IMG/VR virus record: IMGVR_UViG_3300021964_000351
Span: 1 to 29,286 of that record
Direction: 5' to 3' (one strand)
Length of the DNA: 29,286 bases
Origin: a virus
The translations under genes were made by a program, and so were the position numbers. Below the pieces are notes generated by a model. The model saw only the letters and a program-made list of their open reading frames with translations, had not been told where the DNA came from and did no database searches. This document shows, in pieces, positions 195 through 29,286 of the stretch. Position 1 is the stretch's first letter. Each line of letters starts with the position of its first letter.

Positions 195-2149
195 TGGCTA
201 TACCAATAAAAGCCGCATTAACATTATCAAGTAAAGCATTTAATTTAGGAATGAAAGGTGCTAGTAAGGCTGTAGGCGGTCTTGTATTTGCATTTAAGGC
301 TTTAGCACTAGCAATACCAGTAGCAACTGGATTGTTTACAGCCTTAATAGCCAGACAAACACAAATTATAGATCGTATTGGTAAGGTTTCTACAACTACA
401 GGTGTAGCAACAAGTACATTACAAAAATTCGGTTTTGCAGCCGAAATCGCAGGTGTAAGTACAGATCAGGCCCAAGTTGCATTACGTAGATTTAGTAGAA
501 GATTAGGTGAAGCTCAAAAAGGTACAGGAGAATTATTACCAGCACTTAAAAAGTTAGGAATAGAAACAAGAAAGAATGACGGCACATTTAAGAGTGCTGA
601 AGAGGTTTTATTAGAATTTGCAGATGGTATTGCAAACACAGAAGGCGCAAGTGCCAAATTAGCATTAGCATTTAAGGCCTTCGATAGTGAAGGCGCCGAA
701 CTTGTAGGAGTACTTAATGAAGGTAGTGCCGCTATGCTGGAAATGTTCGGTAAAGCAGAGGCTTTAGGTGCTGTACTAAGCAGATCAGCAATTCAAGGTG
801 TAGAAGATTTTAATGATTCTTTTACAGAACTACAAACATTATTAAATGGAGTTGCAAACCAACTGACAGCCGCATTAGCACCAGCATTAAAATTAGTTAC
901 AGATGAATTAATTGACTTTATAATGAAAGGTTCAAAAGAATTTGGCTCTTTTGAAAGTCTAGCAGAAGTAATGGCAGTAGGTATTGTAGATGCAGTAGAA
1001 TTAATTGTGACAGCATTTATGAATTTAACACAATCTGTAGTAGATTTCGTAAATGATTTTAGATTTTATGCAAAATCTCTAGGATTTAGAGATTTGACAG
1101 CTGAAGCACAGTTGTTTCAAGATGTGTTAGATACCACAAATGAAGAACTTACAAAAATAGGTGGCGGCAAACCTTTAGATAGATTAATCAGTAAAACAGG
1201 TTTAGCATCAGCGGCATTCGAAATATTAGAAAGAGCCATGGCTAGTGGTAGTTCAGTTGGCATGGGTATGATAGCTGAAGATATAATAAGATTCGTTGAA
1301 AATTTTGAGAAAATTAACAAAGCAGTAAATGAAGTACAAGCCAGCGGAGAAAAAAATGCATTTAGACAAAATGTAGCATTAAAAGAAGCCAATAAATTAG
1401 TACAAGAAAACCTTGATATAGTAAGAGACGCCTTAGCATCACAAGTATATGCAAATGATCAAATTACATTTAGCAAAGATACATATAACGTTATTTTAGG
1501 CATCCTTAAGAAAATGAGAGATGCAATTATTAAGAAAAATGAAGATACTGATGACGGTAATGAAGATTTAGAAAAAGAACTATCTTTATATGAAAAAATA
1601 TTAAATAAATTAAATCAAATTAATGGTGAAAAGATAGTAGATGATAATTTTGTTGAACGGTTAAAAGCAAGATTAGATCCAGTAGAAAGATTAGCAAAAA
1701 CATTAGAAGACGGACTAGTAGGTGCAGTAAACAAATTTGAAGATGCATTAGCACAAGGATTAATAGATGGTAAAGCAGATTTTGCCGCATTTGGTGACTT
1801 TATTAAACAAACACTAGCAAAAGCATTCGTGCAAAGATTTGTCACAGGACCTATATTAGCCGCATTTGGATTAGCAAGTGGTGGACCAGCAAAAGCAGGG
1901 CAACCATATATCGTAGGAGAGGAAGGACCGGAGCTCTTTATACCTAAAAATTCAGGAACGGTTATTCCTAATGATGAAACAATGAGTATAATGGGTGCTA
2001 GAGGACAGGGTATGAATGGTGGTAGCACCACTGTAAATTATAATATACAGGCAGTTGACGCACCTTCGTTCCAGCAACTAGTTGCAAGAGACCCAGAATT
2101 TATATTTAACGTAAGCAGAGCAGGTGCTCGTAGAACACCTGGAGGGTAA
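194..2149 (+). CDS. Tail tape measure protein
   Basis: A 651-residue protein that should set tail length and help deliver DNA. The N-terminal 60 residues contain a hydrophobic stretch (GGLVFAFKALALAIPVATG). The middle is long, charged and helix-rich. Near residues 562-590 lies the GGPAKAGQPYIVGEEGPELF segment typical of the C-terminal part of lambda gpH-like and related siphophage tape measures. By the usual rule of about 0.15 nm per residue, this suggests a tail of roughly 100 nm (an inference). GGGAG lies upstream of the ATG, which overlaps the preceding stop by one base. It follows the chaperone G/GT and gp10-like genes, as expected for a long-tailed phage. No lysozyme or peptidase domain is recognised. 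Confidence 0.93.
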   Translation: MAIPIKAALTLSSKAFNLGMKGASKAVGGLVFAFKALALAIPVATGLFTALIARQTQIIDRIGKVSTTTGVATSTLQKFGFAAEIAGVSTDQAQVALRRFSRRLGEAQKGTGELLPALKKLGIETRKNDGTFKSAEEVLLEFADGIANTEGASAKLALAFKAFDSEGAELVGVLNEGSAAMLEMFGKAEALGAVLSRSAIQGVEDFNDSFTELQTLLNGVANQLTAALAPALKLVTDELIDFIMKGSKEFGSFESLAEVMAVGIVDAVELIVTAFMNLTQSVVDFVNDFRFYAKSLGFRDLTAEAQLFQDVLDTTNEELTKIGGGKPLDRLISKTGLASAAFEILERAMASGSSVGMGMIAEDIIRFVENFEKINKAVNEVQASGEKNAFRQNVALKEANKLVQENLDIVRDALASQVYANDQITFSKDTYNVILGILKKMRDAIIKKNEDTDDGNEDLEKELSLYEKILNKLNQINGEKIVDDNFVERLKARLDPVERLAKTLEDGLVGAVNKFEDALAQGLIDGKADFAAFGDFIKQTLAKAFVQRFVTGPILAAFGLASGGPAKAGQPYIVGEEGPELFIPKNSGTVIPNDETMSIMGARGQGMNGGSTTVNYNIQAVDAPSFQQLVARDPEFIFNVSRAGARRTPGG

Positions 2150-2152
2150 GCA

Positions 2153-2797
2153 ATGAGCATCCAGAGTCTTATAGATATTGCTAGTGAAATAGAAATAGAT
2201 AGACGTGAGAATTATGCAGGTATTATAAGCAGAAGCGGAAAATACAAAACATCAGATACAAATATAAATGTATTTAGGTTTAACATATCTCCTTCACAGG
2301 GTTTAAAATACAGTGAAAATCAAGCTCTACTAGTAGATTGTGATCAAACAAATGTACTAACAACAAGTAATGTAAGTCTTAATAATAATACAGGAATGAA
2401 TTATTTAACAGCAAACATGCACGGTCAAACAAACAATGCTATATCAGTAGTAGGCTTTAATGGCAGAGACATATACTTAGATACTACTGGTGCAACAGGA
2501 TCAGGTCAGATATTTCAAGCAGGGGATTATTTACAACCGCTAGGAAACACAAACACTTATGCTTATACATATACAGTAAGACAAAGTGTTCCTTTTAGCA
2601 GTTCAGGCAGTAATGTATTAGTTCAATTACACAGACCTATACTAGAACAAGACGGTGTAACTATTATAGGCAGTGGATTAAGATTAGGTAATGATGTAAG
2701 ATTTAATGTAAAATTAGCAAATCCTGTACGTTATACTGTAAATCCAGGCGATAATTTAGTTATAGATACTATAGAACTTGTGGAGGTAATCACATAA
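2153..2797 (+). CDS. Minor tail protein, paralog A
   Basis: A 214-residue, beta-rich protein directly behind the tape measure, in the position of the lambda gpM / distal-tail region. It is clearly related to the next gene. Both carry GxYKTxD, a GDYLQP/GDFIQP block, a conserved middle (RPIL...GxTI), a late NDVRF/KNVRF block and the same C-terminal ending (ELVEVIT versus EMIEVIL). The pair therefore looks like a tandem duplication. Its stop overlaps the next start by one base (TAATG), so translation is probably coupled. The role as a tail-tip structural protein comes from position; I do not recognise a named domain. Confidence 0.75.
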   Translation: MSIQSLIDIASEIEIDRRENYAGIISRSGKYKTSDTNINVFRFNISPSQGLKYSENQALLVDCDQTNVLTTSNVSLNNNTGMNYLTANMHGQTNNAISVVGFNGRDIYLDTTGATGSGQIFQAGDYLQPLGNTNTYAYTYTVRQSVPFSSSGSNVLVQLHRPILEQDGVTIIGSGLRLGNDVRFNVKLANPVRYTVNPGDNLVIDTIELVEVIT

Positions 2798-3534
2798 TGG
2801 CAACATCACCAACAGGACTAATGAAGTTATTAACAAGACCAACTTATGTACAGTTCTATTTAAACAGGACGCCTGCTAAAACAACTTCAATGAGTGGACA
2901 TTATAAAACAAAAGACAATACTGGAAACCCGGTTTATACCTTTAAATTTGCAACACATGAGGGATTTCAGTACAGTACAGAAACAGGATTAAGACCTTTT
3001 ATAGAAGATTTATATGCCAGAACAGGTACTGAGAACGAAGAATTAATTGCATTATTTGACGATAATACAAGTACATATGATTTAACAACTTATAATGGTG
3101 CCTTAACTGAAGCACAACAAGCTCAATTAAGGGTAATTAATGTAGGAAATAGTTATTCTGTAAGCCTACCGCATCCATACGTTGAAGTAAATACGGACGG
3201 AGTTACAGGTTCTCCTAGTGGTTTATTGTTTAAAAAAGGAGACTTTATCCAACCTAGAGGTCCTATTGATACATATAGATATCCATATCAGGTTATTGAA
3301 GACATATCATACTCAGAAAATGCTAATATAGGAGTAATGGTTAATAGGCCTATAATATCACAAACAGGTATAACATTTGGTGGAGGTAGTGGTCCTTACT
3401 ATAGTGGCGGATTATGGGCAGGAAAAAACGTAAGGTTTATCACAAAAGTAACAAAGTTACCTACATACAGTATTGTACCGCATGACAGAGTCAAATTTAA
3501 TGGAGATTTTGAGATGATAGAGGTAATTCTATAA
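2797..3534 (+). CDS. Minor tail protein, paralog B
   Basis: A 245-residue protein that aligns with the preceding gene over most of its length (HYKTKDNTG, KKGDFIQPRGP, NRPIISQTGITF, KNVRF, EMIEVIL). It is longer because of an insertion around residues 60-115. Both copies are intact and diverged at DNA level, so this is an old duplication that likely gave two different rings or layers at the distal tail. It overlaps its neighbours by one base on each side. The function is inferred from position between the tape measure and the tail hub genes. Confidence 0.75.
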   Translation: MATSPTGLMKLLTRPTYVQFYLNRTPAKTTSMSGHYKTKDNTGNPVYTFKFATHEGFQYSTETGLRPFIEDLYARTGTENEELIALFDDNTSTYDLTTYNGALTEAQQAQLRVINVGNSYSVSLPHPYVEVNTDGVTGSPSGLLFKKGDFIQPRGPIDTYRYPYQVIEDISYSENANIGVMVNRPIISQTGITFGGGSGPYYSGGLWAGKNVRFITKVTKLPTYSIVPHDRVKFNGDFEMIEVIL

Positions 3535-7762: not shown

Positions 7763-10700
7763 ATGGCATTAAGCAATATCACAGTCACCTCAACAGAAGC
7801 AAACGTACAGGTTGACATAACAAATACTACTGTATCAGTAGGACAAACAATAAGCAATGTAAATGTAGGCATAGCGGCATTTGTCAGTAATGCAGATATA
7901 AGAAACGCTATAACATTTACCAATACATATGCCAGTAGCGGTTTAGATTATAACCAAAGCAATGGTGTTATAACATATAATTTAAGACCTAGCCTAGGTA
8001 TAGATTTGCCTACTACAGGTGCTGGTTCAGATCAAGGAAATATAAGTGTAGACTTCTCCCCTGATTTATTCGTTGAATCTACTACAAGTCCAGGCACTAT
8101 GAGTGTTTACACCACAGCAAGGGGTACTCAACTTGGCGATACTATTACTAGTTCGATTCCTGAAGGCACAACTACAAGAAATGGTAATGCATTCGTAGTA
8201 ACAAATAGTCTAGGTAACGCTAATATCGTAGGTAATTTATTTGTTCAAGATGGTGGAATAGGTACAGAATATAATACTAGAAGTAATTTTGAAGGTGACC
8301 TTAATTTAATATATGAACCTGGCACACAAAGCACAGCCCGTTTTAGAACTGGTAAACACGTAGAACAAGCTCATAATCCTACTTATGCCGCAGATTGGGG
8401 TATTTCTATACCTCCTGCTAATACTAGCTTTGGTACTGGAACAGTTGCTATGGTTGTTGATGGTGGTAATTTAATACTTAATGATTCTATTCTTGAATTA
8501 ACAGGCTCTGGACATATTGATACACCTTCTGTAACTACTGGAAGTATATATGCTGGTGGTTATTATGCTACTAGTGGTAATATAGACTTATTTGGTAATG
8601 TAGATGTAAAAACCACAGGCGGTTCTAAAAATTTAATTGTAGAGTATGGAAATTTAACTGTGGGAGGCTCAGGAACACCAGGTTTAAATAATGGCGGTAA
8701 TGTTACTGCCAAAAATATTTTAGTTGAACAAACAACAATGGCAAATGGCTCACTGAGAGCAGGTAATGTTAGTGCTAATGTAGTTATAGCCAATTATTTA
8801 TATGGTGATGGTAGTAATGTTACAGGTGTCAGTACATTAACAAACGCTCAAGCACAGACATTTATACAAGACAACGGACTAAACGGTAGTGGTGATATCA
8901 CTATGACTGGTTTAGCACAATTTGGTAATAGTGCTACACAAACCCATACATTTACAGGTAATCTAGACGTAACAGGTAATCTAGAAGTAAGTGGTAACTT
9001 AAATTACAGAAATGTAGAGGATCTATATGTAAGAGATCAGAGTATCACACTTAACGCCAATGCGGCAACAGATGCTACAGTAAGTATCATAGCAAACAGA
9101 CCAGTTGCAGGTAGTAATACTGTATTAAGATGGAACGAAACATCTGATGTATGGGAATTTACTAATGATGGTAGCACATACTATCCTATTCCTACATCAA
9201 CAAGTGATTTAGCAGAAGGCACTAACCTATACTACACAGATGGCAGAGCAGACGCTAGAGTTAATTTACAAACAGGCACAAATCTAGACCTTAGCAATAA
9301 ATCAACAACTGATTTATCTGAAGGCACAAATCAATATTATACAAATACTCGTAGCAGAGCCGCAGTAAGTGTAACACAGGCAAGTGCTAGTGGGTCAGGA
9401 ACATTAAGTTATGATAATGGCACAGGTGTATTTACATATACACCACCAGATTTAACATCATTTGGTTTGACAAACGCTCAAGCACAGGCATTTATACAGA
9501 CTAGCGGATTGGCAATGACAGCCAACGTTACAAGTAACAGTCTTATAAGCACAACAGGTAATTTACAAGTTAATCCAGATACCGTAGTAGGCGGACTTAA
9601 AGGGTTGACCTTTAATAGTGCAACTAACCGATTAGGTTTAGGAACCACAACACCAAGTGCAGGAATACACATGGTAAGTGATGACGATTATGATGCACAA
9701 ATATACCTGGAAGAATACAAAGATGATTTCTATGGACCTGACTTAAGGTTCTATAAGGGCAGAGGAACATTATCATCGCCCACCACGTTGTTTGCAGGCG
9801 ACAGAATGTCAGAGTATAGACCTTATGGCTATACAGGCTCAGGATATATCAACTCACTGGCAATGGTAACGGCAGTAGATAGCACTAGGATCGTTGATGC
9901 CAACACTATGCCAACAGTATATAGTTGGGAAGGTGTTAAAGACGGAGATATAACTACATCATATATGAGTCTTATGAAGTTGAGAGCAAATGGTGACTTC
10001 CAGATAGGTAATTTAGGATTTGGTGCTTCAAATAACGCACCTAATTTTGCTGTTACACACAGCGGAACAGTAGATGCTGTAGGTAATATTACTACAACAG
10101 CAAATATAAGCGGAAATTATATTTTAGGTGATGGATCACAATTAACTAATTTACCAGGTGGCGGTGGTGGTATATCCAACGCCCAAGCCCAGGCATTTAT
10201 AGAAGCAAATGGATTAGATATGACAGCCGCTATAACTAGCGACAGCAACATAGAAACCACAGCATTCTTTGAAGGTGATCTTAATGGTGCTGTAACAATT
10301 GATGTTTACAACAATACAGGTGCACAATTAGATAAAGGTGATGCAGTATACTTAACAGGCGGTAATACAGGAGATAATCCTAATGTTGCACTAGCAGATG
10401 CTGATGATGTAACAAAAATGCCAGCATTAGGTATAGTCAGAGAAAATATAAGTGATGGTGCTATAGGTCAAGTAGTAACATCAGGCGAAATGAACTTCAG
10501 TTCACATGGCTTTACACTAGGCGCAGATTTATTTATAAGCACAACAGCAGGTGCTTTAACAGAAACAGCACCCACAGGTGAAACAGGCCTTATACAAAAA
10601 ATAGGTAAAGTAGTAGGTGCAAATCACATACTGGTTCAGGGTGCATTCAGAACAAACGCAACACCTAACTTGGATGAAAATAAAATCTTTATAGGTAATG

Positions 10701-12679
10701 CGGCTAACAGAGCCACAACAGTAGCATTAGATAACCTAACAGCAAACATAAAAACAACTGGTAATCTACAAGTAAATCCAGACACAGTCGTAGGTGGACT
10801 TAAAGGATTGACATTTGATAGTGCAACTAACCGATTAGGATTAGGAACAACTACACCAAGTGCAGGATTACACATATACAGTGATGATGATTATGATGCA
10901 CAGGTATACCTGGAAGAATACAAAACAGATTTCTATGGACCTGACTTAAGATTCTTTAAGGCCAGAGGAACTAGTTCATCACCCACAGCGGCTCAGGGTG
11001 GCGACAGAATGGCAGACTATAAACCTTATGGCCATACAGGTAATGTATCTGCACCTTTCTCTTATAATGGATTTATTAACACGTTGTCAATGGTAACAGC
11101 AGTAGATATTACAAATGCCGTAAATGACACTACTATGCCAACATTATATAGTTGGGAAGGTTATAAAGACGGAGATTATACAGGCGCCACACCATATAAC
11201 AGCCTTATGAAGTTAAGAGCCAATGGTGACTTCCAGATAGGTAATCTGGGATTTAGTGCGTCAAATACAGCACCTAATTTTGCAGTAACAAACGGCGGTG
11301 ATGTAACTATAACAGGTGACACAACATTCACAAATGCCAATGTTATAAATGGTGTAGTAACAACTTCAGCAAATATAAACATAAACACTAGAACAGATAC
11401 GGTGGCTAGTAATGCCACAATAAGTGTAGCAGGTGTTCAGGCATATAACAACGGCCTTTTAACAGAAGATAGTATTGATTTTACTGGTGGACAAATATTT
11501 GATGACGGCACCGCAGTAACATACAGTGGCGCAACAAATGTAGATGTTACACCATTAAATGGATTAGTATTTTATCTTAAATGGAATAGTGGAGATGGCG
11601 GCAGATACGAATTATTTGATGATTCTGGATTCACAACAGGTTCAAGAAGAGTAACAGGCGGTCTGTTCTATAGCAGTGATTTGGGACAAATAGAGTATGT
11701 TAGTTCAACAGATGTAGCCGCAGGTGGTAATCTAAATGTAGGTGGCAGTAATGCTGTTATACAGAGTCTGGGTGGTAATATAACATCTGTTGGTAATATA
11801 TCAGGTAGTTATATCCTGGGAGATGGTAGTCAACTAACAAATTTACCCACAGGTGGTGACTCATTTGGCACTATAACAGTTGCAGGACAAACAAATATAC
11901 AAGCAACTCAGTCTAATGCTATACTTGATATAGCAAGTAGTGGTGCTATAACACTATCAACATCAGGTAACACACTAACAATTGGTGGCTCAGGTGGAAC
12001 ATATGGTAATTCAGATGTAGAAACCTTCCTGGGCAGTGACACTATGAGTGGTGATATAGTGTATACAGGTAATTTACAATTAAGTAGTGCAAACGTTACA
12101 ACAGCAGTAACAAATTATCAGGGTAATGCATATACAGCCACTGGAGACAGAATTATAGTAGGCAGTGACCCAGGCTGGTTTAATGGACAATATGTAACAT
12201 TTAGCGGCACAACAAATGGTAATTTAACATTCTTAAATGGTAATACATATCAGGTAGCAGGATCAGGAACCGCTTGGACCTTGTATACCAATTATCAAAC
12301 ATTTACTAAATTAGAAACAGCATTAAATGAGGAATCGCCCACAGGATTAACAACAAGTTATAGACAACCAGAAAATACTACAGCAAGAGTTCATGGTAAT
12401 GTATTCGTAGAGCAAGGTGGCACAATGCATACTGATTCCTTGGTGGCATCTACGCCAGGAAAAGTAATAACATTAAATGCAATCAGAGCCACAGACTTTA
12501 AGGTTAATGATCCATTAGGTATATATTCTGTAGCAAATAGTTCAATAAGTGGATTGACACCATTCACAGGAAGTATAATATATGTCACAGGAGATAGGCA
12601 TGGTGCCAGAGGAGCACCAGCATATTTTGACGGCACTGACTTTAGATATTTCTCGGATGACGCATTAGTAACAACATAA
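7763..12679 (+). CDS. Large repeat-built tail fibre protein
   Basis: The largest gene, 1638 residues, rich in Thr, Asn, Gly and Ser with no cysteine-rich or enzymatic region. It is assembled from repeated units: AEGTNLYYT / SEGTNQYYT near residues 485-520; TNAQAQxFIQ at about 360, 570 and (SNAQAQAFIE) 805; GDGSxLTNLP-type units at about 350, 790 and 1350. A unit of about 170 residues (NPDTVVGGLKGLTF...SDDDYDAQ...DFYGPDLRF) is present twice, near 597-765 and 998-1176. The C-terminus (IYVTGDRHGARGAPAYFDGTDFRYFSDD) looks like a terminal beta domain seen in marine phage fibres. It should bind the host surface. Confidence 0.9.
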   Translation: MALSNITVTSTEANVQVDITNTTVSVGQTISNVNVGIAAFVSNADIRNAITFTNTYASSGLDYNQSNGVITYNLRPSLGIDLPTTGAGSDQGNISVDFSPDLFVESTTSPGTMSVYTTARGTQLGDTITSSIPEGTTTRNGNAFVVTNSLGNANIVGNLFVQDGGIGTEYNTRSNFEGDLNLIYEPGTQSTARFRTGKHVEQAHNPTYAADWGISIPPANTSFGTGTVAMVVDGGNLILNDSILELTGSGHIDTPSVTTGSIYAGGYYATSGNIDLFGNVDVKTTGGSKNLIVEYGNLTVGGSGTPGLNNGGNVTAKNILVEQTTMANGSLRAGNVSANVVIANYLYGDGSNVTGVSTLTNAQAQTFIQDNGLNGSGDITMTGLAQFGNSATQTHTFTGNLDVTGNLEVSGNLNYRNVEDLYVRDQSITLNANAATDATVSIIANRPVAGSNTVLRWNETSDVWEFTNDGSTYYPIPTSTSDLAEGTNLYYTDGRADARVNLQTGTNLDLSNKSTTDLSEGTNQYYTNTRSRAAVSVTQASASGSGTLSYDNGTGVFTYTPPDLTSFGLTNAQAQAFIQTSGLAMTANVTSNSLISTTGNLQVNPDTVVGGLKGLTFNSATNRLGLGTTTPSAGIHMVSDDDYDAQIYLEEYKDDFYGPDLRFYKGRGTLSSPTTLFAGDRMSEYRPYGYTGSGYINSLAMVTAVDSTRIVDANTMPTVYSWEGVKDGDITTSYMSLMKLRANGDFQIGNLGFGASNNAPNFAVTHSGTVDAVGNITTTANISGNYILGDGSQLTNLPGGGGGISNAQAQAFIEANGLDMTAAITSDSNIETTAFFEGDLNGAVTIDVYNNTGAQLDKGDAVYLTGGNTGDNPNVALADADDVTKMPALGIVRENISDGAIGQVVTSGEMNFSSHGFTLGADLFISTTAGALTETAPTGETGLIQKIGKVVGANHILVQGAFRTNATPNLDENKIFIGNAANRATTVALDNLTANIKTTGNLQVNPDTVVGGLKGLTFDSATNRLGLGTTTPSAGLHIYSDDDYDAQVYLEEYKTDFYGPDLRFFKARGTSSSPTAAQGGDRMADYKPYGHTGNVSAPFSYNGFINTLSMVTAVDITNAVNDTTMPTLYSWEGYKDGDYTGATPYNSLMKLRANGDFQIGNLGFSASNTAPNFAVTNGGDVTITGDTTFTNANVINGVVTTSANININTRTDTVASNATISVAGVQAYNNGLLTEDSIDFTGGQIFDDGTAVTYSGATNVDVTPLNGLVFYLKWNSGDGGRYELFDDSGFTTGSRRVTGGLFYSSDLGQIEYVSSTDVAAGGNLNVGGSNAVIQSLGGNITSVGNISGSYILGDGSQLTNLPTGGDSFGTITVAGQTNIQATQSNAILDIASSGAITLSTSGNTLTIGGSGGTYGNSDVETFLGSDTMSGDIVYTGNLQLSSANVTTAVTNYQGNAYTATGDRIIVGSDPGWFNGQYVTFSGTTNGNLTFLNGNTYQVAGSGTAWTLYTNYQTFTKLETALNEESPTGLTTSYRQPENTTARVHGNVFVEQGGTMHTDSLVASTPGKVITLNAIRATDFKVNDPLGIYSVANSSISGLTPFTGSIIYVTGDRHGARGAPAYFDGTDFRYFSDDALVTT
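9551..10056 (+). repeat. Fibre module repeat, copy 1
   Basis: About 500 bases inside the fibre gene, repeated at 10754-11289 with high DNA similarity at both ends (for example ACTAACCGATTAGG, CTGGAAGAATACAAA, GGTGACTTCCAGATAGGTAA) and a more divergent centre. The frame is preserved. It is a within-gene duplication. Confidence 0.85.
10754..11289 (+). repeat. Fibre module repeat, copy 2
   Basis: Second copy of the 9551-10056 module, slightly longer because of a short in-frame insertion in the middle (residues such as GNVSAPFSYNG). The ends are strongly conserved and the centre has diverged. Confidence 0.85.
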
Positions 12680-15245: not shown

Positions 15246-15763
15246 GCGTATCATTTAAGGACATACCTTTACACTCAGATAAAGAACAATATATAGAAAT
15301 ACCATTTAGAGAAAAGATATTACAAAATAGCAAAGCAAGTAAATATATATACACACACGCTGAAACAAAAGACTATATAATAGAAGGTTTACTACGATTT
15401 AGTGCAGAAATACAACAAATGGATCAGGCATTCCCTGATATTACAAGTTATGTGTATAAAGAAGATTTAGATTTACCTCGTAGTGGCGAATTTAAACATC
15501 CTATGTCTGAAAAGAAAAAAGCAGGTAATAGTATAATGAGCTATATAGGCGGTATTATCAGCAATTACTATAGAACAGGTAAAACACAAGACTTCAGTAA
15601 AAGCCAAATTAAACACCTGGAAAACATCTGGAATTACACAATAGTACCAGCATTTAATGGTGATTGGAGTTCTATAAATCCTAAATTGTTTGAAAATGGC
15701 TTTGATTATAAAACAAATACACCTAACGATCCGATGAAACGGATCAGATTTAGACGGTATTGA
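15242..15763 (+). CDS. Hypothetical protein, third gene of the early operon
   Basis: A 173-residue protein with a four-base overlap (ATGA) with the HTH gene. It is hydrophilic, helix-rich and without a recognised domain. The C-terminus is basic (MKRIRFRRY). Nothing in the sequence gives a function. Its tight coupling to the HTH protein suggests they act together or at the same time. Confidence 0.7.
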   Translation: MSVSFKDIPLHSDKEQYIEIPFREKILQNSKASKYIYTHAETKDYIIEGLLRFSAEIQQMDQAFPDITSYVYKEDLDLPRSGEFKHPMSEKKKAGNSIMSYIGGIISNYYRTGKTQDFSKSQIKHLENIWNYTIVPAFNGDWSSINPKLFENGFDYKTNTPNDPMKRIRFRRY

Positions 15764-15775
15764 TAAATAAAAAGC

Positions 15776-15834
15776 GAAGTAGATGCGGCCAGATAGACAT
15801 TGTGGTTGATTGAAATCAAAAACCCATCTGCTTC
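15776..15834 (+). promoter_or_regulatory. 10-bp stem structure in leader of the 15852 gene
   Basis: GAAGTAGATG at 15776-15785 pairs with CATCTGCTTC at 15825-15834 (one G-T wobble). An inner hairpin TTGAT-TGAA-ATCAA lies within the enclosed segment. A GATAAATA element is at 15762-15769. The long stem ends 17 bases before the ATG at 15852, so it could control translation. It looks tRNA-like in outline but lacks a T-arm. Confidence 0.45.
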
Positions 15835-15851
15835 CACCCAGGCAACTCATT

Positions 15852-16025
15852 ATGGCACAAGAAAAATTATATACAATAGAAGAATACTTAAATTCTCTTA
15901 AATCGCCTGCAGGCGGCTATAGTAAAGCAACATTAGATACATTAGGTGTTGCATGGCCTCCCAGAAAGGGCTGGAAACAAGAGATAATAGACAAATACTA
16001 CATAAGGTTGACGGGCCAGAAATAA
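15852..16025 (+). CDS. Small hypothetical protein (WPP motif)
   Basis: A 57-residue protein from ATG 15852; a TTG at 15810 would extend it, but that lies inside the leader stem. It contains SPAGGYSKATLDTLGVAWPPRKGWKQ, resembling short marine phage proteins with GGYxKxxLxxLGVxWPPxKGWK. The function is unknown. The ribosome-binding site is weak (AGG about nine bases upstream), which fits control by the leader stem. Confidence 0.65.
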   Translation: MAQEKLYTIEEYLNSLKSPAGGYSKATLDTLGVAWPPRKGWKQEIIDKYYIRLTGQK

Positions 16026-16372
16026 AATACCGTTGAGATCAAGGCTATATGAGACCCAGATAACTTGTATAGACTCATAAGGATTATAGTATTATCCGCA
16101 ACACACTGGACATAAACAGTATAACAATAGGAACGAAGTTATACATGCATCAGCATACCGTAGCAGGTTGGAGATAGTTACAAGATCCTTTGTCCCATAG
16201 TGTTAAATACCTGCTCATCTAGGCTGTGACTACTCACATCAAGAGGATGGAACCAGAAGTGGTTCCGTCTGACTGAAACAATCTACATCAAGTCGAAATA
16301 AAAATACTTACCGAAGTCCGCAAGGACTGAGGTATCGGTAATTGCGTAGCAATTGCCAGAACATAGTTAAAT
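16026..16372 (+). ncRNA. 347-base hairpin-rich non-coding segment (candidate structured RNA)
   Basis: No plausible gene. Stems found by eye: TATGAG/CTCATA (16048-16080), GTATAAC/GTTATAC (16119-16144), ATGC-ATCA-GCAT (16145-16156), AGCAGGT/ACCTGCT (16162-16215), GATGGAACCA-GAAG-TGGTTCCGTC (16246-16269, 10 bp), AGTCC-GCAA-GGACT (16315-16328) closed by TACCG/CGGTA (16309-16340), and GGTAATTGC-GTA-GCAATTGCC (16337-16357). The last two share bases 16337-16340 and cannot both form, as in a regulatory switch. The final hairpin ends 15 bases before ATG 16373. No known RNA family is recognised. Confidence 0.45.
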
Positions 16373-16681
16373 ATGTATATGGAAGTAACATCTGAGCAGA
16401 AAACACAGTTATTAAACACAAACAGAACAGCCGATCACTTGTTTAGATGGGTATATGATGTTATACATAGTGGCAATATATCAGTAAAACAATACAATAT
16501 ATTAATAAAAATACATGACATGCACCCACAAGAGCAATCAGGTTATATTATACACGAAGATGTGTTATGGCCAGTTCCTACTAAAGTAAAGAAGTATCAA
16601 CTCACACCACATGGTTGGGAACAACGCAAGATATTCACACCCAAACGCAACAGACCCAAAACCTACAAAAAGGATAAATAG
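16373..16681 (+). CDS. Hypothetical protein downstream of structured leader
   Basis: A 102-residue protein; ATG 16373 is used here, with ATG 16379 as an alternative. Neither has a clear ribosome-binding site, so initiation may depend on the structured segment upstream. The sequence is hydrophilic and ends in a strongly basic tail (PKRNRPKTYKKDK). No domain is recognised. The stop codon lies within a GGATAAATA element (16672-16680). Confidence 0.6.
   Translation: MYMEVTSEQKTQLLNTNRTADHLFRWVYDVIHSGNISVKQYNILIKIHDMHPQEQSGYIIHEDVLWPVPTKVKKYQLTPHGWEQRKIFTPKRNRPKTYKKDK
16672..16680 (+). promoter_or_regulatory. GGATAAATA element before the methyltransferase
   Basis: AAAAAGGATAAATA ends at 16680, 47 bases before the methyltransferase ATG, which has a perfect AGGAGG site. 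The same core precedes the fibre block (7175-7183) and the portal (22858-22866). It resembles the T4 late promoter TATAAATA in part, but no T4-type sigma factor is recognised here. Confidence 0.4.
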
Positions 16682-16726
16682 AGATACGCATACAGTAGCG
16701 ACGATACTGATATACAGGAGGACAAT

Positions 16727-18476: not shown

Positions 18477-18589
18477 ATATGCATAGCAATATGCTGTTCT
18501 AATGATAGTTGCCAAACGTTCAATCACAGATTCTTTTATTAAGACAGGGCACCCTACCCCGGTGCCCGGTCACTTTTAGGGGTAAAGAT
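18477..18589 (+). promoter_or_regulatory. Terminase large-subunit leader with two hairpins
   Basis: GCATA-GCAA-TATGC at 18481-18494 (GNRA loop) and a GC-rich GGGCACC...GGTGCCC stem at 18547-18567. The second stands out in an AT-rich genome. Rare codons (CGG, CCG, GTC) would be needed if this stretch were coding. It could be a translational control element or part of a packaging (cos/pac) site. An AGGGG ribosome-binding site lies at 18578-18582. Confidence 0.4.
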
Positions 18590-19819
18590 GTGCAGTTAAC
18601 AGATATACAATCAGAAATAATCAATTCAGATTCAAGATTTAAAATAGTAATCGCTGGAAGACGTGGCGGCAAGTCCTTTGCCAGTATAGCCTATCTGGCT
18701 AAACACGCCAGATACCCTGGTAAAAAGTGTATGTATGTAGCACCCACATTTGCAATGTGTAAACAAATTATCTGGGAAGATCTTAAGGATATGCTCAGAA
18801 ACAGGAAATGGATTAAAAAAATTAACGAATCGGATTTAACTATAACACTGGTTAATGGCAGTACTATATTCTTGCGTAGTGCAGATACACCCGACCGTAT
18901 CCGAGGCATAGGTATTGATGCCTGTGTTATAGATGAAGCGGCAGATATAAGTAAATTGCGGGAAGTATGGATGGCAATTATCCGACCTACTTTGTCAGAC
19001 AGACAAGGAACAGCAATGATAATCAGCAGTCCTAAAGGTAAAGGATTCTTGTTTGATTTATATAATGACGCAAAGTATACAGAAGACTGGCAGAGCTGGC
19101 AGTATACCACAGAGCAAGGTGGTCTGGTACCATTAGAAGAATTAGATCAAGCAAAAAGAGATCTGGATGAAAGAACATACAAACAAGAGTATCAGGCAGA
19201 ATTTGTGGATTTTGCAGGGGCAATCTATTATGCTTTTGGCGATCACAATATAGTACAAAAGCCAGTACCTTTACAATTAGGTACTCCTATACATATAGGC
19301 TGGGATTTTAACGTATCGCCACAATGTGTAGTTATAGCATATAAAACAATGGCTGACCTACATATATTTGATGAGATAGAGATATATGGATCAGATACAC
19401 AAGAAATGTGTAATGAAATACGCCAGAGATACCCAGACCAACGATATATAGCCTATCCAGATGCTTCAGGTGCCAGAAGGCAGACCAGTAGCGGAGGACT
19501 AAGCGATCATATTATAATAAAAAATGCTGGATTTAAGTTGATCACAGGCAGTAAAAATCCTCCAGTAAAAGATCGTATAGCCAGTGTAAATAGTGTACTA
19601 AAACAGGACAATATTAGATTGACAATAGACCCTAAATGTGTTAAAGTTATAAATGGTTTAAGGAAACATACATATAAAGAAGGCACCAGACAACCAGAAA
19701 AGGATGGAGCAGTAGATTTCTCGCATTTTAATGATGCCGCTGGTTACTTAATTTATGCAAATTATCCAGTTAGACCAGAATTTAAGCAAACATATGGCAG
19801 AGTAAGTAGAACATTATAG
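18590..19819 (+). CDS. terL: Terminase large subunit
   Basis: ATP-driven DNA packaging motor and nuclease. Numbered from GTG 18590 (409 residues): Walker A AGRRGGKS at 22-29, Walker B CVIDEAA at 112-118 with Asp115/Glu116, motif III ISSPKGKG near 145, then the RNase H-like nuclease with GWDFN (Asp239), YPDASG (Asp291) and HFNDAAG (Asp382). An alternative TTG start at 18509 would add 27 residues but has no ribosome-binding site, directly follows a stop, and uses rare codons in a hairpin. GTG has AGGGG seven bases upstream. The end is certain, the start is not. Confidence 0.93.
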   Translation: MQLTDIQSEIINSDSRFKIVIAGRRGGKSFASIAYLAKHARYPGKKCMYVAPTFAMCKQIIWEDLKDMLRNRKWIKKINESDLTITLVNGSTIFLRSADTPDRIRGIGIDACVIDEAADISKLREVWMAIIRPTLSDRQGTAMIISSPKGKGFLFDLYNDAKYTEDWQSWQYTTEQGGLVPLEELDQAKRDLDERTYKQEYQAEFVDFAGAIYYAFGDHNIVQKPVPLQLGTPIHIGWDFNVSPQCVVIAYKTMADLHIFDEIEIYGSDTQEMCNEIRQRYPDQRYIAYPDASGARRQTSSGGLSDHIIIKNAGFKLITGSKNPPVKDRIASVNSVLKQDNIRLTIDPKCVKVINGLRKHTYKEGTRQPEKDGAVDFSHFNDAAGYLIYANYPVRPEFKQTYGRVSRTL

Positions 19820-22521: not shown

Positions 22522-22693
22522 AGTTGTAAGTCCTGTGTGCGTCTAAAAGAGGTGATTGCCATTACCTTAATTCCAGCACACAGGCAACCGATAAATATAG
22601 TTACATTATAATATAGACGACATAAAGGATAGTGTGTCCATTAACCGTCGTCGATAGTAAAGATGGGTCTTTACATTATAAATGTCTTTCTTA

Positions 22694-22721
22694 AAGCCAG
22701 ATAAGTCAAACGATCTGGCTT
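22694..22721 (+). terminator. Terminator-like hairpin
   Basis: AAGCCAGAT at 22694-22702 and ATCTGGCTT at 22713-22721 form a perfect 9-bp stem with a 10-base loop, followed by a short T-rich run (CTTTAT). It is placed to end transcription of the terminase and small-gene operon. Confidence 0.6.
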
Positions 22722-22734
22722 CTTTATCAGTCAA

Positions 22735-22761
22735 AAAATACCCACATAGTGCGGGTATTTT
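22735..22761 (+). terminator. Rho-independent terminator
   Basis: AAAATACCC at 22735-22743 and GGGTATTTT at 22753-22761 make a 9-bp stem with A-run before and T-run after, so it may work in both directions. It lies between the early/packaging genes and the head operon. Confidence 0.75.
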
Positions 22762-22857
22762 ACTATTACTTTCGGTAATAGGCAAGTTAGGACAAGCCAG
22801 TATTAGTTATAATATGCTTTAATGATTGTCAACAAAAGTGGCCTAAATGGCTAAAAA

Positions 22858-22866
22858 GGATAAATA
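22858..22866 (+). promoter_or_regulatory. GGATAAATA element before the portal gene
   Basis: AAAAAGGATAAATA ends at 22866, 40 bases before the portal start. It shares its core with the elements at 7175 and 16672. A TATAAT box lies about 45 bases upstream (22808-22813) with only a poor -35 (TTAGGA, 15-base spacer), so the real promoter is not certain. Confidence 0.4.
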
Positions 22867-22905
22867 GTAATACCATAAGGGCAACATAGCGACTGGAGAT
22901 AACAA

Positions 22906-28964: not shown

Positions 28965-29286
28965 AATATATAAACGTAAAATTAAAAAGTTAAGAAAATA
29001 TATTGCTACTCGTTTGCCTAAAGAGACATTAGATGAATTTAAAAAGAACACTCCAGTAGATCGAGGAAATGCTAGAAGAAAGACTAAAATTAAAAATAAG
29101 TCTAAAAAAGGATTTACAATTATTGGAGATTATGATTATTCAGGTGTTATAGATCAGGGGAAATATCCTAATCCTCCTGTTAATGGGACTGGAAAAACAA
29201 GAGGTGGATATAGTACACAATCACCTAAAGGTATGACTGAACCTACGCTGAATATGATTAGAAAGAAAATTAAGAAATTTATAGGG
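28942..29286 (+). CDS. HK97 gp10-like neck/tail-completion protein, N-terminal part
   Basis: ATG at 28942, overlapping the T frame stop (28962-28964) by 23 bases. The gene runs off the end and continues at the left end of the window, giving 117 residues across the join. The motif TPVDRGNARRKT (about residues 37-48) is the typical TPVDTGxLRxS pattern of gp10/HK97-like tail-completion proteins. It is followed by a DYDYSGVIDQG strand region and a basic C-terminal helix. In lambda-like order such a gene usually lies before the major tail protein; here it is after the chaperone and before the tape measure. Confidence 0.85.
   Translation, partial: MALKVNDRIYKRKIKKLRKYIATRLPKETLDEFKKNTPVDRGNARRKTKIKNKSKKGFTIIGDYDYSGVIDQGKYPNPPVNGTGKTRGGYSTQSPKGMTEPTLNMIRKKIKKFIG
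29102..29286. repeat. Direct terminal repeat, right copy (circular overlap)
   Basis: Copy of 1-185, identical except for one silent base (G at 29160 versus A at 59). It shows that the window is one full circular unit plus overlap. Confidence 0.95.

Follow-up and report, generated by a model that had tools for sequence, protein, structure and literature searches.

Comparative analysis strongly supports the presence of a structured non-coding RNA, outside the known families, in an intergenic segment of a small phage genome. The window (the whole stretch of DNA analysed, 29,286 nucleotides) is a virus record that holds a siphovirus-like genome of ~29.1 kb. Across relatives of this phage, the RNA holds its shape although its letters differ, and whole sections of it have been swapped; we therefore regard it as a real new RNA rather than a simple gene switch. 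With moderate confidence, we favor a reading in which one phage transcript spans 15762 to 16372 and contains, as its 3' part (16001-16360), an autonomous structured non-coding RNA that serves as a scaffold in trans.

Architecture and genomic setting

A first-pass annotation had described 16026-16372 as non-coding and structured, and folding bears this out: the predicted fold of the + strand was better than those of 100/100 shuffled sequences (z -3.4), whereas that of the - strand was not special relative to shuffles (z -1.0). Three stems named in that annotation are real and conserved, namely the long hairpin (16246-16254/16261-16269), the GNRA stem with its GCAA cap (16315-16319/16324-16328), and the 9-bp terminal stem (16337-16345/16349-16357). 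The proposed extent of 347 bases does cover structured sequence, but its boundaries were too narrow: domain A starts near 16001, within the 3' end of the 57-amino-acid (aa) open reading frame (ORF), whose final codons overlap the domain, and a further hairpin lies 5' at 15776-15834. The parts of the element are as follows.

15762-15769, + strand: GATAAATA box, promoter-like, 5' of the element; this box type precedes the element in relatives
15776-15834, + strand: 5' hairpin P0, arms 15776-15785 and 15825-15834, 10 bp in the window
15852-16025, + strand: optional 57-aa ORF, with an unrelated ORF or none at the same place in other phages
16001-16099, + strand: domain A, type A1 (nhmmer E 1e-22, from a profile that had the window among its members)
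16010-16014/16030-16034 and 16045-16050/16067-16072, + strand: domain A helices, each covarying in 6 sequences
16081-16084/16094-16097, + strand: third domain A helix, identified by inspection
16104-16214, + strand: domain B, type B1, a pseudoknot domain, from covariation and the held-out relative L013
16104-16107/16199-16202, 16108-16112/16191-16195, 16119-16125/16138-16144, 16145-16148/16153-16156, and 16160-16162/16179-16181, + strand: B1 helices
16163-16168/16209-16214, + strand: B1 pseudoknot, in which the loop of 16160-16181 pairs with 16209-16214
16225-16291, + strand: domain C, with stems 16225-16229/16234-16238 and 16246-16254/16261-16269 and direct repeat ACATCAAG
16309-16334, + strand: domain D hairpin (16309-16312/16331-16334 and 16315-16319/16324-16328), with a tandem GA internal loop and a GCAA loop
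16337-16360, + strand: domain E, 3' terminal hairpin, GGTAATTGC-GTA-GCAATTGCC followed by AGA
16366-16373, + strand: GTTAAATA box, 5' of the downstream gene; a TAAATA box stands ahead of the conserved start in relatives
16379-16681, + strand: downstream gene, 100 aa from ATG 16379, of a small-protein family that usually adjoins the RNA

Since the window ends in a direct terminal repeat of 185 bases (1-185 and 29102-29286, 99% identical), the genome is probably complete and either circularly permuted or circular. Genes for the large terminase (18509-19819), small terminase, portal, major head, tape measure, and tail proteins were recognised; the searches made turned up no replication gene. The element lies ~2 kb away from the terminase genes. 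The genome is compact, as had been remarked earlier, and the gap is indeed unusual: by our gene list 5.8% of the genome is intergenic, and the gap holding the element is one of two longer than 350 bases. A second long non-coding stretch (22522-22905, 384 bases) carries two GATAAATA boxes, several hairpins, and what appear to be two terminator hairpins, and is probably another small RNA gene region. Elsewhere, a 1638-aa gene contains long repeats (9545-11298) of 239, 110, and 108 bases that are 80-86% identical.

Covariation and exchange of domains among relatives

Starting from the terminase, the upstream and downstream proteins, and DNA patterns taken from the element, we found ~20 distinct homologous elements in IMG/VR contigs, flanked by the same kinds of genes; these relatives are metagenomic contigs, and several are near-duplicates. 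BLAST searches of isolate phages (with the window stretch and the elements of two relatives) and of a plasmid collection (with the window element) gave short chance matches or none, and the terminase had only distant relatives among isolate phages. A pattern scan of bacterial genomes returned ten matches, approximately the chance expectation, without the flanking structure.

Bulges put the strands out of register when domain B is aligned plainly with MAFFT, so that RNAalifold recovered only 9 pairs from such an alignment, and B1 was therefore aligned by hand. In the resulting alignment of 12 sequences, which leans to the structure and omits one unpaired T of L033, 331/331 cells pair across six helices including the pseudoknot, and 20 of the 29 pairs have changed on both sides. 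The covariation score was 0.594, compared to 0.161 for shuffled and at most 0.12 for slid alignments. Because this alignment had been fitted by hand, we added two checks. In an unfitted MAFFT alignment of six elements with the A2 type of domain A, 93.5% of cells pair and 19 pairs have changed on both sides, a count reached in 0/500 shuffles and no higher than 7 when the alignment was slid. The second check was L013 (large terminase ~53% identical), whose RNA was detected by a sequence profile match (E 8e-9) after the structure had been fixed. All 11 helices are kept in L013, one imperfectly: a1, h1a, h1b, h3, h4, h5, the pseudoknot, C2, D outer, and D inner pair at every position and do so through new base pairs, and hairpin E pairs at 7/9 positions, the partner strings having been chosen by eye in the expected order.

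Compensatory changes were seen in all domains. For stems P0, A1, C2, D inner, and E, complementarity was 0.92-1.00 within a phage and fell to 0.35-0.46 when strands were paired across phages. In P0, eight strand pairs differ among eight sequences, each fully complementary, compared to 0.44 with partners swapped. The second stem of domain C occurs as five strand-pair types, each complementary, with an additional type in L013. The outer stem of domain D pairs at 4/4 positions in 12 sequences and the inner stem has eight strand-pair types. The domain E pattern was present in 21 viral contig stretches, and pairs of the aligned E stems have changed on both sides. The covariation that the first-pass annotation had looked to as a check is thus present above controls in the hand-made, MAFFT, and held-out comparisons. 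Both copies of the domain C repeat (~16236-16243 and 16284-16291) co-vary between phages, with variants CATCAAG, CATGATG/A, and CATAATG/A in L010, L013, L036, L046, L050, and L051; no pairing partner was found for this repeat. A closing helix between leader motif CATTATGGCA and a 3' end CATAATG fits several phages and fails in L038, L044, L046, and L047; we did not retain it.

The relatives share a common plan: a GATAAATA-type box, a 5' hairpin (in most), a leader with CATTATGGCA, and the optional ORF, followed by domains A, B, and C, hairpins D and E, a second TAAATA box, and the small gene. Conservation of the element does not extend to a reading frame, as the same site can hold the ORF, a different one, or none: the ORF has 57 aa in the window, one of 65 aa occupies the site in L006 and L041, others do so in L005, L026, L044, and L047, and it is missing or very short in L007, L010, L019, L025, L033, L038, and L043. 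In L038 (~bases 390-480 of the examined segment), the 5' hairpin and box lie in inverted orientation. In L006, the RNA is separated from the small downstream gene by an inserted ATPase-like gene and a homing-endonuclease-like gene (1790-3276), accompanied by a sigma-70-like promoter.

Domain A occurs as types A1, A1b, and A2 and domain B as B1 or an unrelated B2, whereas the D-E end is shared. The combination A1 with B1 was found in the window, L038, L046, and L010, and A1 with B2 in L002; A2 pairs up with B1 and A1b with B2. The domains have thus been exchanged as units. Relative to L019, the window is 98% identical in DNA over the B-C part, compared to 75% identity for the neighbouring proteins; relative to L002, it is 97% identical over the ORF and domain A, while the B domains are unrelated. 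The module map built from these sequences shows a cassette-like swapping of whole domains between phages by recombination.

The downstream gene and other readings of the element

In almost all relatives whose 5' end was read, GATAAATA, TATAAATA, or a close variant stands ahead of the element. Within the window, GATAAATA occurs seven times on the + strand (7176, 13897, 15762, 16673, 18419, 22590, and 22859), mostly at gene junctions, and not at all on the - strand; five of the seven fall within the 5.8% of DNA that is intergenic (binomial p ~1e-5). We infer that the box is a putative promoter. Similar sequences serve as late promoters in T4 (TATAAATA) and cyanophage S-PM2 (NATAAATA) (PMC2984593), and the likeness extends to the placement of GATAAATA and TTAAATA boxes before transcription units; unlike those phages, however, the one studied here is siphovirus-like with a 29-kb genome. 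Since GATAAATA also resembles a relaxed sigma-70 -10 box, we do not claim a T4-type system. A leader behind the GATAAATA box at 16673 (16673-16726, with TACGCATACAGTAGCGA..ATACTGATATACAGGAG) recurs after the small gene in L050, L051, and L052.

The downstream gene had been placed at 16373 without a clear ribosome-binding site. No such site was found, but the start is probably ATG 16379: ATG 16373 overlaps the TAAATA box, and close relatives share MEVT at the equivalent of 16379. With the start directly after the box, the absence of a ribosome-binding site is expected, and the promoter-like box together with the lack of a Shine-Dalgarno sequence suggests a leaderless message. The TAAATA box precedes the conserved start in the window, L002, L005-L007, L010, L013, L019, L022, L023, L033, L036, L041, L043, and L050-L052. 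The small-protein family (16 relatives aligned) adjoins the RNA in most loci, divergent ones included, which makes it a candidate partner of the RNA; in L022 and L023, the protein and its box are present and the RNA was not seen adjacent. The protein had no significant match or known domain in Pfam or PHROG, and its predicted model (pLDDT 78) matched no fold and resembles no RNA-binding fold.

The position of this gene directly 3' of the RNA in most relatives, and its want of a ribosome-binding site, would fit a cis-acting leader, a riboswitch or attenuator that controls the gene through alternative folding. The first-pass annotation had taken two stems sharing 16337-16340 as the alternatives of such a switch, and this did not withstand comparison. 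The alternative pairing is full in the window, whereas the other sequences can form 0-3 of its 4 pairs, and in 12/12 sequences (the window and 11 relatives) hairpin D closes with the equivalents of 16331-16334, just before ATCGG. In none of the 11 relatives does the strand that closes hairpin D fully match the start of hairpin E, so that the alternative pairing looks like chance in one sequence rather than a switch. No intrinsic terminator was found in the region of the element, and no expression platform that sequesters a ribosome-binding site was recognised: the gene lacks a Shine-Dalgarno sequence, and the box directly before its start codon offers a leaderless start. Moreover, L006 and L005 have intervening genes with their own promoter-like sequences, and in L022 and L023 the gene retains its box where the RNA is not adjacent. 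We consider control in cis unlikely.

The ORF and the RNA lie in one predicted transcript, and hairpins at both ends could block exonucleases; the RNA might then be a structured 3' untranslated tail that, with the 5' hairpin, stabilises the mRNA of the small variable ORF. However, the structure persists in many relatives that lack the ORF, and a pseudoknotted domain with several covarying helices far exceeds what stability needs. We give this reading the same low probability as control in cis.

Only 4 of the 331 B1 cells are G-U pairs, and pair types alone are compatible with folding as single-stranded DNA. A replication origin or a packaging or recombination site might be sought in this genome, given that no replication gene was recognised, that the terminase genes are ~2 kb away, that the domains recombine, and that the 5' hairpin is inverted in L038. 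Yet the element has features typical of RNA (the pseudoknot, the GNRA loop, and the tandem GA loop), the strand to be transcribed folds better, and the orientation matches that of the genes in the loci compared, so that a DNA-level element is quite improbable. A divergent self-splicing group I or II intron, which the length, pseudoknots, optional ORF, and homing-endonuclease-like gene near the element in L006 might recall, is highly implausible, as searches of the window stretch and of 11 relatives gave no group I or II match even at relaxed thresholds, and complete ORFs flank the element in the loci read, with no split gene seen. A group I core likeness of domain A2 was likewise unsupported by models.

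Under the favored reading, a trans-acting scaffold, transcription would start just 3' of the GATAAATA box, the 5' hairpin would cap the transcript, and the small optional ORF may be translated from it. As covariation shows, the RNA then folds into domain A, pseudoknotted B, C, tandem-GA hairpin D, and terminal hairpin E. During infection it would serve in trans as a scaffold, made of RNA or of ribonucleoprotein, perhaps together with the adjacent small protein.

Relation to known RNAs and implications

The earlier statement that no known RNA family is recognisable stands: Rfam gave no match in the window at gathering level, and nothing relevant at relaxed thresholds for the element and 11 relatives. 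The covariance models of GOLLD, ROOL, and OLE likewise had no match at those levels in the same sequences. No tRNA or tmRNA gene was found by ARAGORN in the window or 19 related loci, so that a tmRNA (a tRNA-like domain with a tag ORF) was rejected as a candidate.

The phi29 packaging RNA is a phage RNA, and the element, itself placed near terminase genes, resembles it in this; it differs in having no Rfam match and in lying in a genome with its own small and large terminase genes, and nothing points to packaging. GOLLD and ROOL are large, heavily structured phage RNAs whose function is unknown (PMC12286853). Like GOLLD, the element is a large structured phage RNA with one conserved end and a variable remainder (PMC12286853), but it spans ~360-550 nt (GOLLD is often >800), lacks a GOLLD match in Rfam, is not beside tRNA genes, and has whole domains replaced by unrelated ones. 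ROOL is likewise ornate, has multiple pseudoknots, and occurs in phages or prophages (PMC12286853); the element differs from it in lacking a match to the Rfam model and a tRNA island. Self-assembly into RNA cages and frequent proximity to tRNA genes are features of GOLLD and ROOL. OLE, an ornate large RNA, has been shown to bind proteins (references in PMC12286853). The element is comparable to OLE as an ornate large RNA and has no Rfam match. OLE is a bacterial RNA and is not known from phage terminase regions. No description of the element was found in the literature searched, the coverage of which omits many journals. The element is comparable in kind to GOLLD and ROOL and is a member of neither by the tests made here.

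More tentatively, the element may represent a new class of phage RNA with exchangeable domains and a slot for a small cargo gene, which would join the adjacent small protein in a ribonucleoprotein and act on the host or on virion production. If so, domain swapping would reflect selection, for example for escape from host defence or adaptation to host factors. Few RNA classes are as poorly understood as the large ornate RNAs of phages such as GOLLD and ROOL, and the element is a further one, absent from Rfam and from the isolate phage and plasmid collections searched and carried by small compact phages. Its relatives provide direct evidence that domains of structured RNA, like those of proteins, can be exchanged. 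A testable structure comes from the covariation model, and the adjacent small-protein family offers a first candidate partner.
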